From: Halobiforma nitratireducens JCM 10879
GTDB taxonomy: Archaea > Halobacteriota > Halobacteria > Halobacteriales > Natrialbaceae
Assembly (NCBI RefSeq): GCF_000337895.1
Contig: NZ_AOMA01000089.1
Coordinates: forward strand, 1-42,281
Direction of reading: 5' to 3'
DNA: 42,281 bases
Shown here: piece after piece, positions 29,862-42,281 of the stretch
Layout of the letters: each line of letters opens with the position of its first letter
How positions within the stretch are numbered: position 1 is the first letter of the stretch
Position numbers and translations under genes: made by a program
The notes under the pieces: generated by a model
The model's input: only the letters and a program-made list of their open reading frames with translations
What the model was told of the DNA's origin: nothing
Database searches by the model: none

Positions 29862-30281
29862 TGGGTGAGGCGACGAGCCGGGAAAGGAGCGACGAGTGAG
29901 GCGACGAGTGACGAGTACCGGCCGTTGCTACTGTCGTTTGGCACGAACAGGCTTCGGCCCCGCGTTTCGAGTTCTGTGTCGGATCGCATCGAATCGCGTC
30001 GACAGTCGCCACGACCGCGCCACGGAGTTTTCCTGACCGAATCCACACGAACGCGAGTCTTCGCTCCGACCCACTCGGGCGGACACCCAACTCGAGCGGT
30101 CGTCGGACTTCAATCGGCTCGAGCGCCGTGTCCCGACCCGTTTTCGAGAGGTAGAAACGTTCGACGGCCGATCGTCGAGCCCTGCGGAAACCCGTCGCCG
30201 ACGGAGACGGTATTCCGCTCCACACTGTCGGAAGGCGGGGAATAACAAGGGCTGGAACGGGAAAACCGGAGAGCAGTTCGA
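29862..30281. other. Intergenic region, no gene recognised
   Basis: About 420 bp. It begins with short imperfect GCGACGAG repeats (29870-29915). Open frames exist on the plus strand, but their composition is not like a haloarchaeal protein. TATA-like AATAACAAG at about 30241 lies 40 nt before the next gene. Confidence 0.4.
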
Positions 30282-32123
30282 ATGTCTCCCCACTCCGCCG
30301 CCGACGCAGAACCGTTCAGGAAGTTCGCGCTCGCGATCGGGTTTCTCGTACTCGCCGGCAGTGCCCTCCTGGCTCGCTCGGCTCCCGCGACGGGGTACGA
30401 ACTCTCTCCGTTCACTGCGACCCCGGCGCTCGTGTGGGCTGGGCTCCTCCTCGCGATGGCGATCGCGCTGACTGTCGCGTTCGTCCCGCCCGCAGGGAGC
30501 CGCGGCCCCGACGGGCGTAGTCGAACCAGGCCCGTCGCCCTCCTGCTCGGCGGGCTCTCGATGGCTGTCTTCGCTGGCCTCCCGATCCTCCGGGGGTACC
30601 GGTTCTACGGGCACCACGACGCGCTGACCCACCTCGGCTGGGCGCGGGCGATCAGCGACGGGACGATGGCTCCGTTCGAACTCTACTACCCCGGCATCCA
30701 TACGACGACGGCGCTGGTCGACGCGACGCTCGGGACGCCGGTGACACGATCGTTGCTCTACGTCGTGTTGCTCGCGGTGCTCGTGTACTGTGTGTTCGTG
30801 CCGCTGTGTGTCGGTACCGTCGTCTCGGATCGTCGTGGGACCGTCGTCGCCGCGTTCTCCGCGTTCCTCCTGTTGCCGATCACGACGATTTCGATGTACC
30901 TGTCGGCCCACGCGATGTCCCAGGCAGTCATGTTTTCGGCGCTGTTTTTCTACCTGCTGACGCGGTACGTCCGGACCGAGGGGACGACTGCAGCCGTGAC
31001 GGCGACCGGCGCACTCCTCGGACTCGCCGCGACGGCGACGGTCGTCTACCACCCCCAGCTGGTCGCGCACCTGATCGTCGTGCTCGCCGGGATCGGCGTC
31101 GTCCAGCATTTCGCCCGCCGGCTCGCCAGCGACGGCCGGGTGGCCGGACAGACGACCGTGTACGGGCACACGGCGTTGCTGATCGGGCTCTTCCTCGTCT
31201 GGACGTCGAACCACGGTTTCTTCGGCGGGATGATCCAGTACTTCCTGGGCTCCGCGGTCGAATTCCTTCTCGAGGGCAGAGGCGGCGCGGACGCGATGGC
31301 TGCCCAGGGCGCGTCGCTGTCGGCGATCGGCGGCAGCCTGGGCGAGATTTTCGTCAAGCTCTTCCTGGCACAGCTGGTGTTTACTGTACTCGCTGTCGCG
31401 CTGGCGGTCGGGATCGTCGCGTCGCGGTCCGACCTCCTTCGGCGCGTTCGACCCGAGACGACGTACTTCACGATCGCGGTGCTCGGCCTGGGGCCGCTGT
31501 TTCTGATCTACTTCGTCGCTCCCGGTTCGACGATGCACTTTCGCGTGTTCGGGCTGATGATGGTGTTCGTCACGTTCCTCGGGTCGATCGCCCTGTTCGG
31601 CATCTACACCTGGCTCTCCAACTCCAGTAGCCCCCGTTCGAGGGGTCGCCTGCCGGGGGGGCGGCCGCTGTTCGCCGTGGGGTTCGCACTGTTGCTTATC
31701 CTCTCGCTCGTTGCGGTCTTCCCCTCGCCGTACACGTACAACGCATCCCCACACGTCAGCGATACGAAAATGAGCGGATACGAAACGGCATTCGACGAAC
31801 GCCTCGAGGACGTGCCGCTGGTCGGGCTCCGGAACGGGCCGAACCGGTACGACGACGCGATCAACGGCAACGAAGAGCGGATGCGACTCCACGAGGGTCC
31901 ACCTGAGACCGGCCTCGGCGGCGACCTCGCGAGCCAGTACGACGAGAGTCGATACCTCGTCCTCACCGAGACCGACTACGAGCGGGAGACGGTGGCCTAC
32001 CAGGAGCTACGGGTTACGGAGAGTGAACTCGACTCGGTCGCGACCCAGCCGGGTGTCGATCGAGTCCAATCGAACGGCGAGTTCGACCTGTACTGGATCG
32101 ACGGGGAGGACGAGGAAGCCTGA
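30282..32123 (+). CDS. Large polytopic membrane protein, GT-C glycosyltransferase-like
   Basis: 613 residues: about 12 helices in residues 12-485 and a soluble C-terminal domain of about 120 residues (YTYNASPHVSDTKMSGYETA through LYWIDGEDEEA). The first external loop has RFYGHHDALTHLGWARAISD followed by G-T-M and then ELYYPGIHTTTALVD. Acidic/His residues at this position are typical of GT-C-fold lipid-linked glycosyltransferases, but no catalytic pair can be proven. It is probably a membrane enzyme or transporter of surface-glycan assembly. It is the last gene before the first inverted repeat of the cassette. Confidence 0.7.
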   Translation: MSPHSAADAEPFRKFALAIGFLVLAGSALLARSAPATGYELSPFTATPALVWAGLLLAMAIALTVAFVPPAGSRGPDGRSRTRPVALLLGGLSMAVFAGLPILRGYRFYGHHDALTHLGWARAISDGTMAPFELYYPGIHTTTALVDATLGTPVTRSLLYVVLLAVLVYCVFVPLCVGTVVSDRRGTVVAAFSAFLLLPITTISMYLSAHAMSQAVMFSALFFYLLTRYVRTEGTTAAVTATGALLGLAATATVVYHPQLVAHLIVVLAGIGVVQHFARRLASDGRVAGQTTVYGHTALLIGLFLVWTSNHGFFGGMIQYFLGSAVEFLLEGRGGADAMAAQGASLSAIGGSLGEIFVKLFLAQLVFTVLAVALAVGIVASRSDLLRRVRPETTYFTIAVLGLGPLFLIYFVAPGSTMHFRVFGLMMVFVTFLGSIALFGIYTWLSNSSSPRSRGRLPGGRPLFAVGFALLLILSLVAVFPSPYTYNASPHVSDTKMSGYETAFDERLEDVPLVGLRNGPNRYDDAINGNEERMRLHEGPPETGLGGDLASQYDESRYLVLTETDYERETVAYQELRVTESELDSVATQPGVDRVQSNGEFDLYWIDGEDEEA

Positions 32124-32146
32124 CCTCGCTCGACCCTCGCATCTGT

Positions 32147-32232
32147 CCTATAATCGCCACTGCAAGTCAGTGCGTACCGAAGCGCCAGACGGAGCGGCGG
32201 TCAGTGTGCAGATCGTTGCAGTTGTCACTATA
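32147..32232 (+). repeat. Inverted repeat, left copy, flanking the phosphohydrolase-flippase cassette
   Basis: 86 bp that match the reverse complement of 35950-36032. The core 32184-32232 agrees with the right copy at 45 of 49 positions without gaps; the outer 35 bp agree less well with small gaps. Both start at CCTAT and end at ACTATA. It lies 23 nt after the GT-C-like gene and about 115 nt before the small ORF at 32348. Confidence 0.85.
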
Positions 32233-32347
32233 TGTCACTGATCGGATGAGTCGGATACGACGGTCGAGCGTTCTCCCGGCGTTGTGGAACGACTACCGCC
32301 GCGAAACCGCGCGATAACAAAGCCCGCGAGGACGGTTGCTCGAGGTA

Positions 32348-32503
32348 ATGAATCGGTCGAACGACACGGCTCGCAGGCTCCACGGATACGACGATAGCGA
32401 CGGTGACGGCGATAGCGACGGTGACGTAACCCCCTCGAAACTGGCTCGACTCGTACCGTCGGGCCCAGAACCACCGCTCCAGTCGAGGTGGGACGACCGA
32501 TGA
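32348..32503 (+). CDS. 51-residue small acidic ORF coupled to the phosphohydrolase
   Basis: ATG 32348 to TGA 32501-32503, which overlaps the phosphohydrolase start by 4 nt (ATGA). The peptide begins MNRSNDTARRLHGYDD, has a Ser-Asp-Gly-Asp repeat from a direct DNA repeat (GATAGCGACGGTGACG at 32393 and 32411), and ends PPLQSRWDDR. The ATGA overlap favours translation. No homologue recognised; it may be a leader cistron or small partner of the phosphohydrolase. Confidence 0.5.
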   Translation: MNRSNDTARRLHGYDDSDGDGDSDGDVTPSKLARLVPSGPEPPLQSRWDDR

Positions 32504-34176
32504 AGACGGTCGTTATCGGACTCGACGCGCTCGATTTTCGCTATCTGAACGAATTCGCCGACGCGACGCCGAACCTCCAGCGACTACGAGAACGCGGTCA
32601 CGAGGCGCGTCTCGAGTCGACACACCCCCCGTGGACGGGCAGTGCCTGGCCATCGATGTACACCGGCACCGACCCGAGCCACCACGGCGTCTACGGCTTT
32701 TTCGCCTACGACGGCTACCCCGACGACGCACGACTCGTCTCCCGAACCGACGTCGACGCGCCGACGCTCTGGGACTACCTCTCCAGCGACGGCGACCGCT
32801 CGGTCGTGCTGAACGTCCCGGTGACTCATCCTGCAGACCGGATCGAGGGGACGCTCGTGCCGGGCTATCTCGCTGTCGAGGACGAGCCGGGTCACCCGGC
32901 GGGCATTCGTGACGAGCTCTCGGACGCGATCGGCGAGGAGTACAGTATCTACTCGCGCGCCGAAGTCAGCGACGACAGCGCGGAGAAGTTCGACGGCTAC
33001 CTCGAGTTGATCGACCAGCGGCGGCGTGCGGCCGTGGAGCTTCTCACCCGAGAAGAGTGGGAACTGGCGGTGGTACAGGTTCAGAAGACCGACGCCGTCT
33101 TCCACAATTTCGAGCGCGACGAGCGATTCCGGCGGATTTACCGGGCCGCCGACCGGTTGGTCGGTGACGTCCTCGAGGCGGTCGACGACGAGATCAACGT
33201 CGTCGTCTGTTCCGATCACGGGATCGGACCGGTCACCGGCTACAACGTCCACGTCAACGAAGTGCTCCGGGAGCACGGGTTCGTAGAGACGACCGACGAG
33301 ACGGATCGACCGACCATCGGGACCGAGAAGGCATCGCTCGTAGCGGGCGACGGCAGCGGCGGAGCTGAATCTTCCTCGAGCCCTGCCGACGACACAGCCG
33401 ACGCCGACGGTACCGCCACCGACCTACTCGAGAACACCGTCCGTATGGGTCAGCGACTCGCCGCCCGCGTCGGCGTCGAACCCGCGGACGTCTACGCGGC
33501 CGCGGAACGGGTCGGCCTCGAGTCGACGCTACTCCGGCTCGCACCGGATGCCGTCAAATCCGCCGCCACCGAGAGCGTCGACTGGCGCAACTCTCGGGCC
33601 TACTGTGCCGACGGGACCCGAATGGGCGTCCGGATCAACCTCGCCGGCCGGGAACCCAACGGGGTCGTCCCCCAGTCGGCATACGAGTCGACGCGGGACG
33701 ACCTCGTCGGGATTCTCTCCGACCTCGAGACCCCCGACGGCGAGCCCGTCTTCGAGTACGTCTGCCGGCGAGAGCAGTTGTACGACGGCCCACACGTCGA
33801 GCGGGCCCCCGACATCTGTTTCCTGCCGACCGACATGAACCACCTCGTCTCGAGTTCGCTCTACGGACGGCGGTTCGTGAGCGTCGACGCCCACAATCAC
33901 AAGCTCGACGGCGCGTTCATCGGTGCTGGACCCGGCTTCGCCGACGGCGACGCAGCGCCCGACCGCTTCTCGCTGAGCGATGTCGCCCCGATCACGATGG
34001 GACTGCTCGGGCGTCCCGTTCCCGCGACGATGACCGGCACCGTTCCCGGCGGATTGCTCGGGCACGATGTCCGCCGCCGCGACTACGGTGACGTTTCCCA
34101 CGGTCGTACCGTCGCCGATCCGACCGCCGACGACGGCGAGGTGACCGAACGACTCGAGGACCTCGGCTACCTCTGA
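32500..34176 (+). CDS. AlkP-superfamily phosphohydrolase, paralogue 2, coupled to a flippase
   Basis: 558 residues from ATG 32500. Catalytic layout as in the other copies: Asp9 (VIGLDALD), nucleophile candidate Thr46 in PPWTGSAWPSMYTG, Asp/His in KTDAVFHNF, SDHGIG, and a late His in DAHNHKLDG. An acidic Ser/Asp insert lies near residues 275-310. It has no signal peptide. The C-terminus RLEDLGYL is shared with paralogue 1. It overlaps the small ORF upstream by 4 nt and the flippase by 1 nt (TGATG), which ties it to handling of a lipid-linked or nucleotide-linked glycan precursor. The whole unit is enclosed by inverted repeats. Confidence 0.87.
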   Translation: MKTVVIGLDALDFRYLNEFADATPNLQRLRERGHEARLESTHPPWTGSAWPSMYTGTDPSHHGVYGFFAYDGYPDDARLVSRTDVDAPTLWDYLSSDGDRSVVLNVPVTHPADRIEGTLVPGYLAVEDEPGHPAGIRDELSDAIGEEYSIYSRAEVSDDSAEKFDGYLELIDQRRRAAVELLTREEWELAVVQVQKTDAVFHNFERDERFRRIYRAADRLVGDVLEAVDDEINVVVCSDHGIGPVTGYNVHVNEVLREHGFVETTDETDRPTIGTEKASLVAGDGSGGAESSSSPADDTADADGTATDLLENTVRMGQRLAARVGVEPADVYAAAERVGLESTLLRLAPDAVKSAATESVDWRNSRAYCADGTRMGVRINLAGREPNGVVPQSAYESTRDDLVGILSDLETPDGEPVFEYVCRREQLYDGPHVERAPDICFLPTDMNHLVSSSLYGRRFVSVDAHNHKLDGAFIGAGPGFADGDAAPDRFSLSDVAPITMGLLGRPVPATMTGTVPGGLLGHDVRRRDYGDVSHGRTVADPTADDGEVTERLEDLGYL

Positions 34177-35738
34177 TGGCCGACCAGGCGCGTGAACTCT
34201 CCGCGTTGCTCTCGAGTGCGGCGATCGTGATGGTTGGCGGGATCGTCGGCTCCGCCGCGCAGTTAGCGGAGCGAGTCGTGATCGGCCGGCTGCTCTCGCC
34301 GGACGCCTACGGCGAGGTCAGCGTCGGCCTCGCGCTGTTGACCGTCTCGGTGACGGTCGCGCTCGCTGGGTGTACCCAGGGCGTCTCCCGGTTCATTCCG
34401 CGGTACGATGCGACCGAGGACAGGCGTGGCGTCTGGATAAGCGGGTTGCTCGTCGCGATGCCGCTTTCGTTCGCGATCGCGACGGGGATGTTCCACTTCG
34501 CGGAGTCGATCGCGAGCCACCTGTTCGAGACGGCCGAGGCGGTGACGTTCGTCCGGTTGCTCGCCGTCGCGCTACCGTTCGTCGCCGCCTTCCGGATCGC
34601 CGTCGCGGGTATCCGTGGTTACGAGAACACCGTCTACCGGACGATCGCTCGCGATCTGCTCGATCCGGGACTACGGATCGGACTGATCGCCGCCCTGTTG
34701 CTCGCCGGCGTCGGCATCGTCGCCGCAGGGATTGCGTACCTCCTGGCGGCCGTTATTACCCTGCTCGTCGCCCACTACTTTCTGGCCCGGCTCATGCCGT
34801 TAGTCGGCGAGTTCCGAACGCACGTTCCCGAACTCCTCCGATTTTCCGCGCCGCTCGTCGTTTCGACCGTGGTGAGCATCCTGCTTACCCGCACCGATAC
34901 GCTGATGCTTGGATACTTCCGGACATCCTACGAAGTCGGTATGTACGACGCGGCGTACCCGCTCGCGGGCGGGTTGCTCGTCGTTCTCTCGGCCTTTGGC
35001 TTTCTCTATCTCCCGATCGCGTCGCGTCTCGACGCCGAGGGCGAACGCGATGCCGTCGACGATATCTACGCGACGACGACGAAGTGGGTCTACGTCGTTA
35101 CGTTCCCCGCGTTCCTGTTACTCGTCGTCTTCCCGGAAGACGTGATCGCGCTCGTCTTCGGCCCCGATTACGCCGAAGCAGCCCGAGTGTTGCCGTTGCT
35201 CGCGGTCGGCTTCTTCCTCAGCGCCGCCGCCGGCCGCGACCGAGAGACACTCTCGGCACTCGGTGCGACGACCTGGATCGCCATCGGCAATGCGACCGCA
35301 CTCGTCCTCAATATCGCGGTCAACCTCGTTCTCATCCCACAGTACGGGTTCGTCGGTGCGAGCATCGCGTCGGTCACCTCGCTCGTAACTCTCCATCTCA
35401 TCATTTGCGGATTCTTGGCGGCCAAGTACGGCATCACTCCGTTCTCACCGTCGGCCTCGCGCTGTTACGTCTCGCTTCCGGTCGTCTTGCTCCCCCTCGG
35501 GGTCGCCGCCTCGAGCGTCGTCACGATCTCTCTCGTCACGCTGGTTCCATTCCTCGTGGTGGCCGGGCTCGCCTCACTGGTCATCGTCGCGGTCGCCGGC
35601 GGTCTCGAGGCCAACGACATCGTCGTCCTCGATCTCCTCGAGGATACGACCGGGATCGATGTCCCAGTGGTCCGTCGCTGGATTCCCGAGAGGAAGACGG
35701 AGGCGGGCGAGATCGGCGACTCGAAGTCCCCGAACTGA
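34176..35738 (+). CDS. Wzx/RfbX-type polysaccharide flippase (MATE-like oligosaccharide exporter)
   Basis: 520 residues with about 14 membrane helices, the expected size. Family features: N-terminal SSAAIVMVGGIVGSAAQLAE, then RVVIGRLLSPDAYGEVSVGL; GCTQGVSRFIPRYDATEDRR; ILLTRTDTLMLGYFRTSYEV; and VTFPAFLLLVVFPEDVIALV, then FGPDYAEAA. Such proteins move lipid-linked sugar repeats to the outer face of the membrane for surface polysaccharide or S-layer glycan. The start ATG shares one base with the phosphohydrolase stop. It is the last gene inside the inverted repeats. Confidence 0.9.
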   Translation: MADQARELSALLSSAAIVMVGGIVGSAAQLAERVVIGRLLSPDAYGEVSVGLALLTVSVTVALAGCTQGVSRFIPRYDATEDRRGVWISGLLVAMPLSFAIATGMFHFAESIASHLFETAEAVTFVRLLAVALPFVAAFRIAVAGIRGYENTVYRTIARDLLDPGLRIGLIAALLLAGVGIVAAGIAYLLAAVITLLVAHYFLARLMPLVGEFRTHVPELLRFSAPLVVSTVVSILLTRTDTLMLGYFRTSYEVGMYDAAYPLAGGLLVVLSAFGFLYLPIASRLDAEGERDAVDDIYATTTKWVYVVTFPAFLLLVVFPEDVIALVFGPDYAEAARVLPLLAVGFFLSAAAGRDRETLSALGATTWIAIGNATALVLNIAVNLVLIPQYGFVGASIASVTSLVTLHLIICGFLAAKYGITPFSPSASRCYVSLPVVLLPLGVAASSVVTISLVTLVPFLVVAGLASLVIVAVAGGLEANDIVVLDLLEDTTGIDVPVVRRWIPERKTEAGEIGDSKSPN

Positions 35739-35949
35739 TACGGATCGGTGTGACGATTTACCGGTGCAACCGTTTCGAGTCGCGATTGTAGCGGAACTGA
35801 CGATAGTAAACCGTATGAGGCCGTCTTCGCGTCGGTTCCTGCTGGCCAACCGAACGACCGCCGATGGTCGGTACGGGAAGCCACTTCGAAGCCGGGTTTC
35901 GTCTCGGTCCGAACTGCTCGGACGCGCTGGTACTGTCCCTCGATAGCAC

Positions 35950-36032
35950 TATAGTAACAACTGCAACGGTTTGCACACTGATCGCCGCTCCGTCTGGCAA
36001 GCACGGACGCTGACTGCAGAGGCTACGATAGG
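35950..36032 (-). repeat. Inverted repeat, right copy, flanking the phosphohydrolase-flippase cassette
   Basis: 83 bp, the reverse complement partner of 32147-32232. The core 35950-35998 is 45/49 identical to 32184-32232; the four differences are all transitions. It lies about 210 nt after the flippase stop and 175 nt before the beta-helix gene. Confidence 0.85.
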
Positions 36033-36175
36033 GTGGGACGCTCCAGCTCGGTCGCTGTCGGTGGCCCGTTCTCTCCTTCCTGAAAGTAACTTCGACACTA
36101 CAGTCACTATTACCTGAACAAACACTCACGAATACAATTATATACGCGAAACACAGACACTCAGGAAGGGAAAAC

Positions 36176-36181
36176 TTATAA
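36176..36181 (+). promoter_or_regulatory. TATA box of the beta-helix gene
   Basis: TTATAA within CTTATAAAG, centred 28-29 nt before ATG 36207, in a strongly AT-rich 80-bp stretch. Suggests a strong leaderless promoter. Confidence 0.65.
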
Positions 36182-36206
36182 AGTTATAATTCAGTAAATC
36201 GGACGC

Positions 36207-37913
36207 ATGGCACGCGATCCGACGGAACTGGATGACGACGAACCACACGGAACAGACCCTGGAACGACCGATAACGGGGGTAACGACCCCCTACTCGGCC
36301 GACGATCCTACCTGACGATGGCCGGCACGGCCGCGGCGACGACGGTCGCCGCGGTGGGCTCGGCCGCAGCCAGCAGTGATTACGACGTGGTCGAAGTCCC
36401 CGCCGGGGGCACCCACAGTATCCGGCTCAACGACGGCGACACGTTAGAGAACGTCCTGATCGATATCTCGGCACGCGGCGCGGAGTACAACATCCACGCC
36501 GTCGGCAACGACATTACGATCCGGAACGTCGGTGTTCGTGGCCAGTGGGACAACACGAGCCAGACCTCGCCGCTGATCATGGCCGTCCCCGATCCGAATA
36601 GCACGTCTCGTATCGAGAACGTCTACCTGGGCGACGGCGCTCGCGGGAACACCTATCCTAACGGACCGACCGGAATCTTCGTGGCGGCACTGCATGCTGG
36701 CACGATCGAGATCGACAGCGTGAACATTCAGGACATGCCCGACAACGCGGTGTACGCTTCTTCCCCAGGCAACCCGCCACGTCACCCGAACACGGGTAAC
36801 GACGGCGTCGTCCGAATCACGAACTCATACGCGGCCGACTGTAACGCCGGCGGGTTCCGAATCGGGACCGACGGCTCCTCGGTCGAAAACTGCGTGATGG
36901 TCAACAACGACCGCAACTTCTGGGGCTACTTCAACGAAACCGATGTCCGCGACTCCGACATGTCCGGCGGTCGCATCCACGACGTTCGCGCCGGCGCTCG
37001 AGCCTGGAACACCTCCTCGACCGTCCGACTCGAGAACTGCCGATTCGAGACGACGAACACGGCAACTCGAAACGATCGTATCGTCGGTAGCTCCCAAGGG
37101 ACCCCGCGAACGGAACCGCCGGAATCCGCGCCTCGGTCGCCCGAAGAGGCCGCGGCCGGTGAGTCGGGAGACGGTGACCCGAACCCGCCGTCGGAACCCG
37201 ACGAGGGTGACGACGGTGACGACGAACCCGAAGAAGAACCGGACGACGGTGACGACGACCCAACGATCGAAGACGCCTGGGAAGACGACGGCGCTACCCA
37301 CCTCGTTCTCGAGGGGGGCTCCGGGGGCGTCTCCGAGTACGAGTTCGTCGGTCGCGGCGATGCGGAACCCGGCGACGACGCCAACACGAATTCCGACGAT
37401 CCGTATCGGGATACAGTAACGCGTGACGGCGACGAGTTCGTCATCGAGGGCTACCTCGGCGGCTACCGCGACGACTTCTACGTCGACGGCCGCATCGACA
37501 GCGTGTCGGCCGACTCGGACGTGACGGCGATCGTCAACGGCTACGAGTTCGATCCCGCCGACCTCGAGGGCGTCGGCTCGTGGGACGGTGGCGAGGACGA
37601 ACCGGAAGACGACGAAGACCAGAACGAAAACGAAGACGGAGACGACGACTCGTCCGGTGACCTCCCGCACGTCCTGCTGTTCGATGGGACCGAAGCCAGC
37701 GGCCCGACCACCTACTCGTTCACGATCGACGGGACCGTCGAGCCCGCCGAGTACATGGGCGCGACGATCGACGACGAAACCGAGATCGAGGGGACGACGG
37801 TCCGCGGGATCGTCGCCAACTGGCGCGACGCCTACCGCTTCGACGGCGACATCACCGACTTCCGACTGGTCGGTGACGCCGAAGTCCACCTCGAGTACGA
37901 CGTCGACGACTGA
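36207..37913 (+). CDS. Secreted right-handed beta-helix protein with duplicated C-terminal domain
   Basis: 568 residues. A Tat signal is visible: Arg32-Arg33 in GRRSYLTMAG followed by an Ala-rich core, with cleavage near residue 56. Residues 60-290 form a parallel beta-helix of the pectate-lyase-like kind (ENVLIDISARGAEYNIHAVG, RIENVYLGDGARGN, VRITNSYAADCNAGGFRIGT). Two related C-terminal domains follow, at about 364-460 and 484-568, separated by acidic linkers; both have the pattern strand-Gly-x-x-YxF(x)nG, then R-D-x-(Y/F)-x-x-D-G-x-I. It is probably a surface glycan-binding or -cleaving protein; no catalytic residues could be assigned. Confidence 0.85.
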   Translation: MARDPTELDDDEPHGTDPGTTDNGGNDPLLGRRSYLTMAGTAAATTVAAVGSAAASSDYDVVEVPAGGTHSIRLNDGDTLENVLIDISARGAEYNIHAVGNDITIRNVGVRGQWDNTSQTSPLIMAVPDPNSTSRIENVYLGDGARGNTYPNGPTGIFVAALHAGTIEIDSVNIQDMPDNAVYASSPGNPPRHPNTGNDGVVRITNSYAADCNAGGFRIGTDGSSVENCVMVNNDRNFWGYFNETDVRDSDMSGGRIHDVRAGARAWNTSSTVRLENCRFETTNTATRNDRIVGSSQGTPRTEPPESAPRSPEEAAAGESGDGDPNPPSEPDEGDDGDDEPEEEPDDGDDDPTIEDAWEDDGATHLVLEGGSGGVSEYEFVGRGDAEPGDDANTNSDDPYRDTVTRDGDEFVIEGYLGGYRDDFYVDGRIDSVSADSDVTAIVNGYEFDPADLEGVGSWDGGEDEPEDDEDQNENEDGDDDSSGDLPHVLLFDGTEASGPTTYSFTIDGTVEPAEYMGATIDDETEIEGTTVRGIVANWRDAYRFDGDITDFRLVGDAEVHLEYDVDD

Positions 37914-37961
37914 CACCGCTGGTTCGGATCACTCTCCGTTGCTCTTTTCGACGGTCTCCGG

Positions 37962-39236
37962 TCAGAGTTGCCCGTTGTAGTGGTTGTACGCCTCCCGCAT
38001 ATCCCACAGGAACGGACGCACGTCGTCGACGCTCGCACAGTCGAACCGCGGGTGTTCGACCATCGAACGGGCGATCTCGGCGACCGCAGACGTGAACGAC
38101 GGCTTCTCGGCGAGGTCCACGTCCTCGGACAGGATCGACCGCAGGTAGAGAAGCTCCCCCCGCAGGAGGTGTCCGGCCATCCCCGCCTCGTAGGCGTGTT
38201 CGATCCGGTCACGGTCGCCGTTTGCCAGCTGCCAGTAGTAGTACGGGAAGTCCGCGCCCGCCTGTACCGAAAACGGTAGCGACGACCAGAACCGCGGGTT
38301 GATCTCCATCAGTTTGAACTCGCCCGTCTCGTCGTCCCGCAGGAACTCGACCATCGCAAGCCCGTGCCACTCGAGGTGATCGAGCAGGTCACGGCCCGCT
38401 TCCTCGAGGGCCGGGATGCGAACCGATTCGCGGAACGAACTCGCGCCACCGGCGTAGCTGTACCCCCGTAGCTGTCGGTGCTGGAAGGTCGCGACCGGCT
38501 CTCCGTGATCGTACAGCGCGAAGAAGCCGTACTCCTCGGTCGTCGGGACGTACTCCTGGAGCAACGGGACGTGATCCATCTCGCGTCTGAGCCGATCGAT
38601 GTCGGGCTCGCTCCCCCGTGGGAGATACTCGGTCTTGGGCGGGTCGAGGAACTCGGCAGGGGTGTACCGATCGACGTACTCGTCGACGAGGATCGAGTAC
38701 CGCGCCTTGACGATCCACTTGCGGTTCCAGTCCCAGTCCGGGCCGCTCGAGTCGAGCAGCGCAGTTTCGGGAACGGGAACCCCGGCCGCCTCTGCTGCGT
38801 CGAACAGTCGCACCCGGTCCTGTGTGGCTGCAAGCGTCTCGAGATCGGGCCACGGCGTACTTACGTACTGGTCGAACTCGTCTTTGTACTTCGCGAGGAC
38901 GTAGACGTCGACGTCTCGGACGGGGATTATCGTTTTCAAGTCGGGTCGCATCGCGACCGACAACAGCGCGTCCTTGTAGGCAAGCAGGTTCTCGTGTGGG
39001 GAAGGGACGGGGATAGACTCGTCGCAGTACTTCGAGCGGGTCGCGGGGATGCCGTCGCGATCCGCGAGCGCGATCGTTCGGACGTCGAGCCCCTCTTTCC
39101 GGCCGAACGACCGGAAGCACGCCAGCGTACTGGGTGCCGTGATCGCCGGCACCGCGACCGACGTCTCGGCCCACTCGTCGGTGACGGTCACCGACTCCGC
39201 GTCCGTCCCTCCCAGGCCGTCGTCGGCCCTAGCCAT
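37962..39236 (-). CDS. ATP-grasp carboxylate-amine ligase
   Basis: 424 residues from ATG 39236 (GTG 39245 is an in-frame alternative). ATP-grasp landmarks: PSTLACFRSFGRKEGLDVRT in the pre-ATP domain, WIVKARYSILVDEY with the ATP-binding Lys, PLLQEYVPTTEEYGFFALYD, AMVEFLRDDETGEFKLMEIN followed by P-R-F-W with the Mg-binding Glu and Asn. Such enzymes join a carboxylate to an amine through an acyl-phosphate. In surface-glycan loci they may add amino acids to sugars. It is convergent with the beta-helix gene, 48 nt away. Confidence 0.85.
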   Translation of the reverse strand: MARADDGLGGTDAESVTVTDEWAETSVAVPAITAPSTLACFRSFGRKEGLDVRTIALADRDGIPATRSKYCDESIPVPSPHENLLAYKDALLSVAMRPDLKTIIPVRDVDVYVLAKYKDEFDQYVSTPWPDLETLAATQDRVRLFDAAEAAGVPVPETALLDSSGPDWDWNRKWIVKARYSILVDEYVDRYTPAEFLDPPKTEYLPRGSEPDIDRLRREMDHVPLLQEYVPTTEEYGFFALYDHGEPVATFQHRQLRGYSYAGGASSFRESVRIPALEEAGRDLLDHLEWHGLAMVEFLRDDETGEFKLMEINPRFWSSLPFSVQAGADFPYYYWQLANGDRDRIEHAYEAGMAGHLLRGELLYLRSILSEDVDLAEKPSFTSAVAEIARSMVEHPRFDCASVDDVRPFLWDMREAYNHYNGQL

Positions 39237-42258: not shown

Positions 42259-42281
42259 CTGTCTCTTATACACATCTCTGA
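42259..42281. other. Nextera transposase mosaic-end adapter (assembly artefact)
   Basis: Bases 42259-42277 are exactly CTGTCTCTTATACACATCT, the Nextera mosaic end, followed by CTGA. The translated ends VSYTHL (plus) and MCIRDR (minus) are well-known adapter peptides in metagenome assemblies. This is not organism sequence. Confidence 0.97.

Follow-up and report, generated by a model that had tools for sequence, protein, structure and literature searches.

Paired inverted repeats at a haloarchaeal surface-glycan locus are probably independent insertions of a dispersed MITE-like element

We analyzed a 42,281-nucleotide stretch of Halobiforma nitratireducens JCM 10879 (contig NZ_AOMA01000089.1 of assembly GCF_000337895.1; hereafter the window), in which two inverted repeats enclose a phosphohydrolase–flippase cassette of a surface-glycan locus. 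The two repeats are probably independent insertions, into two intergenic gaps of this locus, of a dispersed noncoding 80-bp element that resembles a miniature inverted-repeat transposable element (MITE) and would be moved in trans by an ISNma7-type IS630 transposase; the cassette is a separate matter. The element, which we call family 1, is multicopy, intergenic, and sharp-ended; it is absent from this locus in four congeners and is present or absent at homologous sites elsewhere.

The arms of the pair (32184–32232 and 35950–35998) are 49 nt long and complementary at 45/49 positions (92%), and all four mismatches are transitions, as a preliminary description made from the window sequence alone had reported; they form the longest of 50 inverted pairs detected in 30000–38500. 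Full repeat boundaries were taken from the family alignment (Table 1), and end to end the two copies are identical at 71/81 aligned bases, with 7 gap positions. The small open reading frame (ORF), AlkP-superfamily phosphohydrolase, and Wzx-like flippase described between them are borne out by translation and by matches to PF01663, PF13440, and PF01943, and no transposase was seen between the repeats (32148–36031). Beyond the reach of that description were a repeat of a second family, lying between the flippase stop and the right family-1 copy, and about 92 further family-1 sites in the same genome.

The source genome is a draft of 3.69 Mb in 205 contigs (85% complete). Searching with a 181-bp segment that spans the left copy gave at least 40 sites, and a covariance model built from 31 copies gave at least 125 matches at E ≤ 0.01 (among the best 150 of 2107 candidates), which collapse to about 94 sites when both strands of one site are counted once; the weakest of these (~27 bits) may contain family 2 or chance matches. 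The consensus, CTATAGTAGCCACTGCAAGTCAGTGCGCACCTGATCGCCAGACGGATCGGCGATCAGTGTGCAAATCGTTGCAGTTGTTACTATAG, derived from 30 source-genome loci and the right window copy, is an 86-bp imperfect palindrome bounded by terminal inverted repeats (CTATAGTA...TACTATAG), with sequence conservation ending sharply on both sides. An early suggestion of two MITE copies thus agrees with an element that is short, noncoding, dispersed over about 94 sites, and polymorphic in its insertion. A transposase-gene remnant, proposed from a peptide string common to both copies, does not: in 4 of the 31 copies in the alignment, indels (1, 1, 3, and 4 nt) disrupt or displace the reading frame (coding signal was sought in ORF lists only), and the string is common to both because the DNA is shared.

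Family 1 occupies the spaces between genes. Flanks were usable for 89 copies; none of these has most of its length within a predicted gene, and nine run into a gene end by no more than 30 nt (genes from a purpose-made codon-usage caller; two further copies at contig ends left out). These 89 comprise 42 tandem, 23 divergent, 20 convergent, and 4 unresolved gene contexts. In Natrialba magadii and Natronorubrum bangense, three genes are annotated as extending 6 to 68 bp into a family-1 copy. Eleven neighboring pairs lie within 3.9 kb of each other in the source genome (7 direct, 4 inverted); under uniform random placement ignoring contig breaks, 8.8 such pairs are expected (SD 2.7), and one or more inverted pairs arose in 0.99 of 2000 runs. 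Because pair spacing and orientation match random placement, the bracketing of the cassette needs no explanation.

Comparison with the same locus in four congeners (G001–G004; L094–L097) separates the cassette from the repeats. A family-1 profile search of the four loci returned no copy. Two of them (G001, G002) carry the cassette (window 32276–35736, 79% identity) between the same neighbor genes and in the same orientation relative to them; the left cassette border measures 43 bp there versus 171 in the window, and the right gap is too diverged for base-by-base alignment. In G003 and G004 (L096/L097), the cassette is swapped: Between the same neighbors lie a glycosyltransferase gene on the minus strand (PF00534) and a flippase other than that of the window (PF01943/PF13440). 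The gene content of the locus therefore varies without family 1, since congeners keep or swap the cassette there in the absence of any copy; the locus is variable, yet nothing points to the repeats as the cause.

These results bear on the proposals that the pair forms the ends of one mobile unit or a set of recombination sites inverting or exchanging the cassette. The inverted orientation and clean bracketing invite such a reading, but bracketing is expected by chance, the repeat ends have diverged independently, and congeners keep the cassette (two) or replace it (two) without repeats; that the pair delimits a cassette that flips, is exchanged, or moves as one unit is highly improbable. The core recurs between genes at about 94 dispersed sites, the very observation that the preliminary description had set against its own cassette-border idea. 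The tempting notion of a repeat-driven glycan cassette switch is thus removed and replaced by a more concrete one: Family 1 would insert on its own account, and the cassette would be present or swapped independently of it.

Family 1 is concentrated in the family of the source organism. At E ≤ 1e-4, 33/61 genomes of relatives have matches—32/37 Natrialbaceae and 1/24 from other families of the order—and copy number among relatives ranges from 0 to >70 (at least 71 at the top of the per-genome tallies). Named haloarchaeal plasmids extend this range: 41 of them hold 145 places, including plasmids of Haloarcula and Halomicrobium, which belong to a different family. No record of a phage collection matched, and two exact patterns found none in viral contigs. 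Between genera, plasmid-borne copies reach 98.8% identity (Natrinema zhouii and Natronorubrum bangense; L228, L230), and such near-identity suggests recent spread.

The element is mobile. We compared 14 family-1 copies across replicons: five on pHmuk01 and four on pLC1Hm-01 (two replicons that are 92–94% identical in matching stretches), three on pHH400 of Haloarcula hispanica (compared with H. sinaiiensis and H. marismortui), and two in G002 (compared with G001). Clean occupied/empty pairs were obtained for 6 of the 14, three of them from the nine pHmuk01/pLC1Hm-01 copies, with a net gain of 82 bp in five and 81 bp in one. Other comparisons were less informative: Haloarcula copy c1 differed by a net 205 bp and is not a clean pair, G001 holds other DNA rather than an empty site opposite one copy (L198), and for three Natrinema/Natronorubrum plasmid copies the nearby homologues gave one-sided matches only, with no clean empty site among the matches listed.

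Occupied sites have the form C-TA-[80 bp]-TA-G, as expected if an IS630-type element inserted into CTAG and duplicated the TA. ISY100 is described as inserting into TA and duplicating it, and the reference list of that paper includes a title according to which an IS630 transposon prefers TA in CTAG (PMC2170065). The net gains of 82 and 81 bp agree with a TA duplication. Read by eye, the six empty-site 4-mers are CTAG (twice), CTAC, CTGG, CCAG, and CCAG, that is, CTAG and four one-off variants, with some alignments ambiguous; 13 of the 256 possible 4-mers lie within one change of CTAG. Both CTAG readings come from Haloarcula, and the one at copy c3 was seen in both species compared. We propose that the element would insert into the TA of CTAG-like sites and duplicate it.

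The candidate enzyme comes from a set of insertion sequences (ISs) with matching ends. IS630-type genes (PF13358) occur in 20/41 genomes searched, and 11/30 IS630-type loci have TAGTA(G/A) ends; among the ends listed for these loci, all start TAGTA(G/A) and 22/24 are preceded by CTA. One locus is annotated as ISNma7 (L266; 1055 bp with transposase). ISNma7 and four others have one end TAGTAG and the other TAGTAAC, matching the family-1 ends, and others have TAGTAG at both; the first 6 or 7 bases are equal to those of family 1, and 10/15 bases are identical at each end. An ISNma7-type transposase may thus act in trans on family 1, cutting at its TAGTAG/TAGTAAC ends. We found no paper on ISNma7 in the open-licence literature.

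Several observations weigh against this assignment of target and enzyme. Exact CTAG was found at only two of the six empty sites, one of them (c2) in a poorly aligned gap, and both CCAG readings depend on the alignment (a short repeat at pHmuk01 21344; changed flank bases at L195/L219). A flank scan of 58 good copies showed no standout duplication, although a TA within the conserved CTATAG ends would escape it. Beyond the first 6–7 bases, the IS and family 1 differ. The IS was found in 25/61 genomes, and across 37 genomes of the family IS630 presence and family-1 copy number are uncorrelated (Spearman 0.06, P 0.71); of the genomes with at least 20 family-1 matches, 9/16 have the IS and 7/16 have no IS match. 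The source genome itself, a draft, has no IS630 match at E ≤ 1e-20. IS loss after a burst might account for high-copy genomes without it.

A mini-element of the same kind moved by another enzyme—an IS5-type transposase, or whatever moves the small mobile repeats (SMRs) of Haloquadratum—would accommodate these high counts in genomes where no ISNma7-type IS was detected, and likewise the non-CTAG empty sites in 4/6 pairs. It also has a precedent, in that the accessible text on the Haloquadratum SMRs describes ends unrelated to transposons known there and calls their mobilization "enigmatic" (PMC3119063). The terminal bases and CTA..TAG setting common to family 1 and the ISNma7-type IS speak against another enzyme, which we consider rather unlikely, if worth keeping in view.

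Among known systems, the SMR-A and SMR-B repeats of Haloquadratum walsbyi are close in description, the basis on which they were compared: The accessible text presents them as haloarchaeal, 80–110 bp, noncoding, with inverted ends and tens of copies, strain-specific in presence, and inserted into other mobile elements (here, family 3 inside family 1; below), whereas it gives them no target duplications or related transposons (PMC3119063). For the present families, TA and TNA duplications appear likely, and an end-matching IS can be named. IS630/Tc1-mariner MITEs share with family 1 the inverted ends and an IS with the same terminal bases, and a TA duplication at CTAG like theirs is proposed for family 1; unlike them, family 1 is nearly all one palindrome with a conserved core, and the IS is absent from many carrier genomes. 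The ISNma7-type IS has the same C-TA-[TAGTAG...]-TA-G setting but carries a transposase within its 1055 bp and has no similarity past the ends noted above. REP/REPIN elements, which are associated with RAYT transposases, are also dispersed intergenic palindromes; family 1 differs in its probable target duplication and transposon-like ends. No such repeat was found in the accessible part of the N. magadii genome paper (PMC3403918). The pair is thus ordinary as a cassette border, and the element belongs to the MITE/SMR kind, with a testable mobilizer and possibly a modular design. Haloarchaeal short mobile repeats have been reported with unexplained movement; the empty sites found here, together with a target and a candidate transposase, open that movement to testing.

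Two further families bear on this design. Family 2 occurs in 16/41 genomes, all Natrialbaceae, with an 86-bp consensus of layout TNA-TACGG...CCGTA-TNA. Its left and right triplets are equal in 22/22 copies picked by end similarity (permutation expectation 0.68 per copy) and in 19/20 copies picked by position in G003; one occupied/empty pair (G001 versus G002), read by eye, has a TCA duplication. Family-2 copies lie on a gene stop codon in 15/22 of the first set and in only 4/20 in G003 (null 3.8–8.4%), and a stop-codon preference was therefore dropped as a rule. One copy borders the exchanged cassette of G003 on its left (L096:4320–4401), at the TGA stop of the DUF6541 gene. Family 3, from Halomicrobium, has equal TNA triplets in 12/14 copies listed; one sits inside a family-1 copy, flanked by a TCA duplication (L192:35136–35219; pLC1Hm-01 185136–185219), and another, at pLC1Hm-01 17147, fills a gap where pHmuk01 carries family 1.

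Families 1 and 2 resemble each other in the middle. Their consensus sequences agree at 11/12 positions in 13–24 and 9/12 in 63–74, with only 4/12 at either outer end, and the core agreement of 20/24 was reached by 0/200,000 shuffles. The conserved blocks CTGYAACGATTT and ACTGACKTRCAG stand at equal positions in both. A core-block pattern gave 134 matches in 1.47 Mb of fetched DNA and 0 in one shuffled copy; it was derived from the families themselves, and a few of its matches are spurious by spacing. Across families 1 and 2, 87% of cells are paired, with 11 pairs showing double changes (slid controls, 24–46% and 0–6) and 52 double-change cells (0–12 in controls). Rows of this test come from few lineages, and the kept pairing despite base changes supports, without proving, a selected structure.

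We therefore weighed whether the palindrome is a functional structured element (a DNA-binding site, terminator, or RNA) under selection, its mobility being secondary. The consensus has a predicted fold of −48.6 kcal/mol, and both the pairing held through sequence change and the two conserved blocks fit such a role. Set against this are the absence of RNA covariation among source-genome copies; an Rfam search with nothing at the gathering score (a second gave only a chance match outside the element); a copy number that runs from none to dozens between relatives; and an orientation relative to tandem genes of 21:21. Few lineages contribute the double-change cells, and complementarity is inherent in inverted ends. 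We judge a primary structural function improbable and favor the MITE-like insertions. A broader scheme is speculative and, in our estimate, somewhat doubtful: Families 1–3 might form a haloarchaeal superfamily of 80-bp hairpins that keep the core (CTGYAACGATTT ... inner hairpin ... ACTGACKTRCAG) and exchange the outer 12 bp, and hence the mobilizing transposase—TAGTA ends with TA duplication in family 1, TACGG with TNA in family 2, TACTG with TNA in family 3, whose core resemblance was seen by eye only. The core would then be the unit under selection, riding any available transposase, and the mobile element would be defined by its middle rather than its ends.

Table 1. Repeats and genes at the locus (window coordinates)
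Feature	Position	Strand	Evidence
Left family-1 copy (86 bp: element of 80 bp flanked by C-TA and TA-N), CTATAA...CTATAT	32148..32233	+	Profile match 84.8 bits; covariance-model match 79.8 bits; absent at same locus in G001–G004
Right family-1 copy, 83 bp (consensus length minus 3 bp)	35949..36031	-	Profile match 72.0 bits; covariance-model match 66.4 bits; absent at same locus in G001–G004
Family-2 element, TGA-TACGG...CCGTA-TGA; left TGA is the flippase stop codon	35736..35818	+	Profile match 58.0 bits; dispersed family; TNA duplication rule
Upstream flanking gene, DUF6541 membrane protein, conserved neighbor in G001–G004	30282..32123	+	PF20176, E 8.6e-8; DNA matches in all four congeners
51-aa ORF of cassette	32348..32503	+	Translation; conservation of the start region in G001/G002
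Type I phosphodiesterase / AlkP-superfamily gene of cassette	32503..34176	+	PF01663, E 8.9e-42
Wzx-like flippase (polysaccharide flippase) gene of cassette	34176..35738	+	PF13440, E 5.2e-24; PF01943, E 6.8e-23
Downstream flanking gene, no Pfam match, conserved neighbor in G001–G004	36207..37913	+	Locus comparison; Pfam search

At the contig end, window positions 42259–42281 contain an exact 19-base sequence, CTGTCTCTTATACACATCT, which we take to be a transposon-sequencing adapter; on that assumption, the final bases of the contig are artefactual, as are the ORFs that read SYTHL/MCIRDR there.

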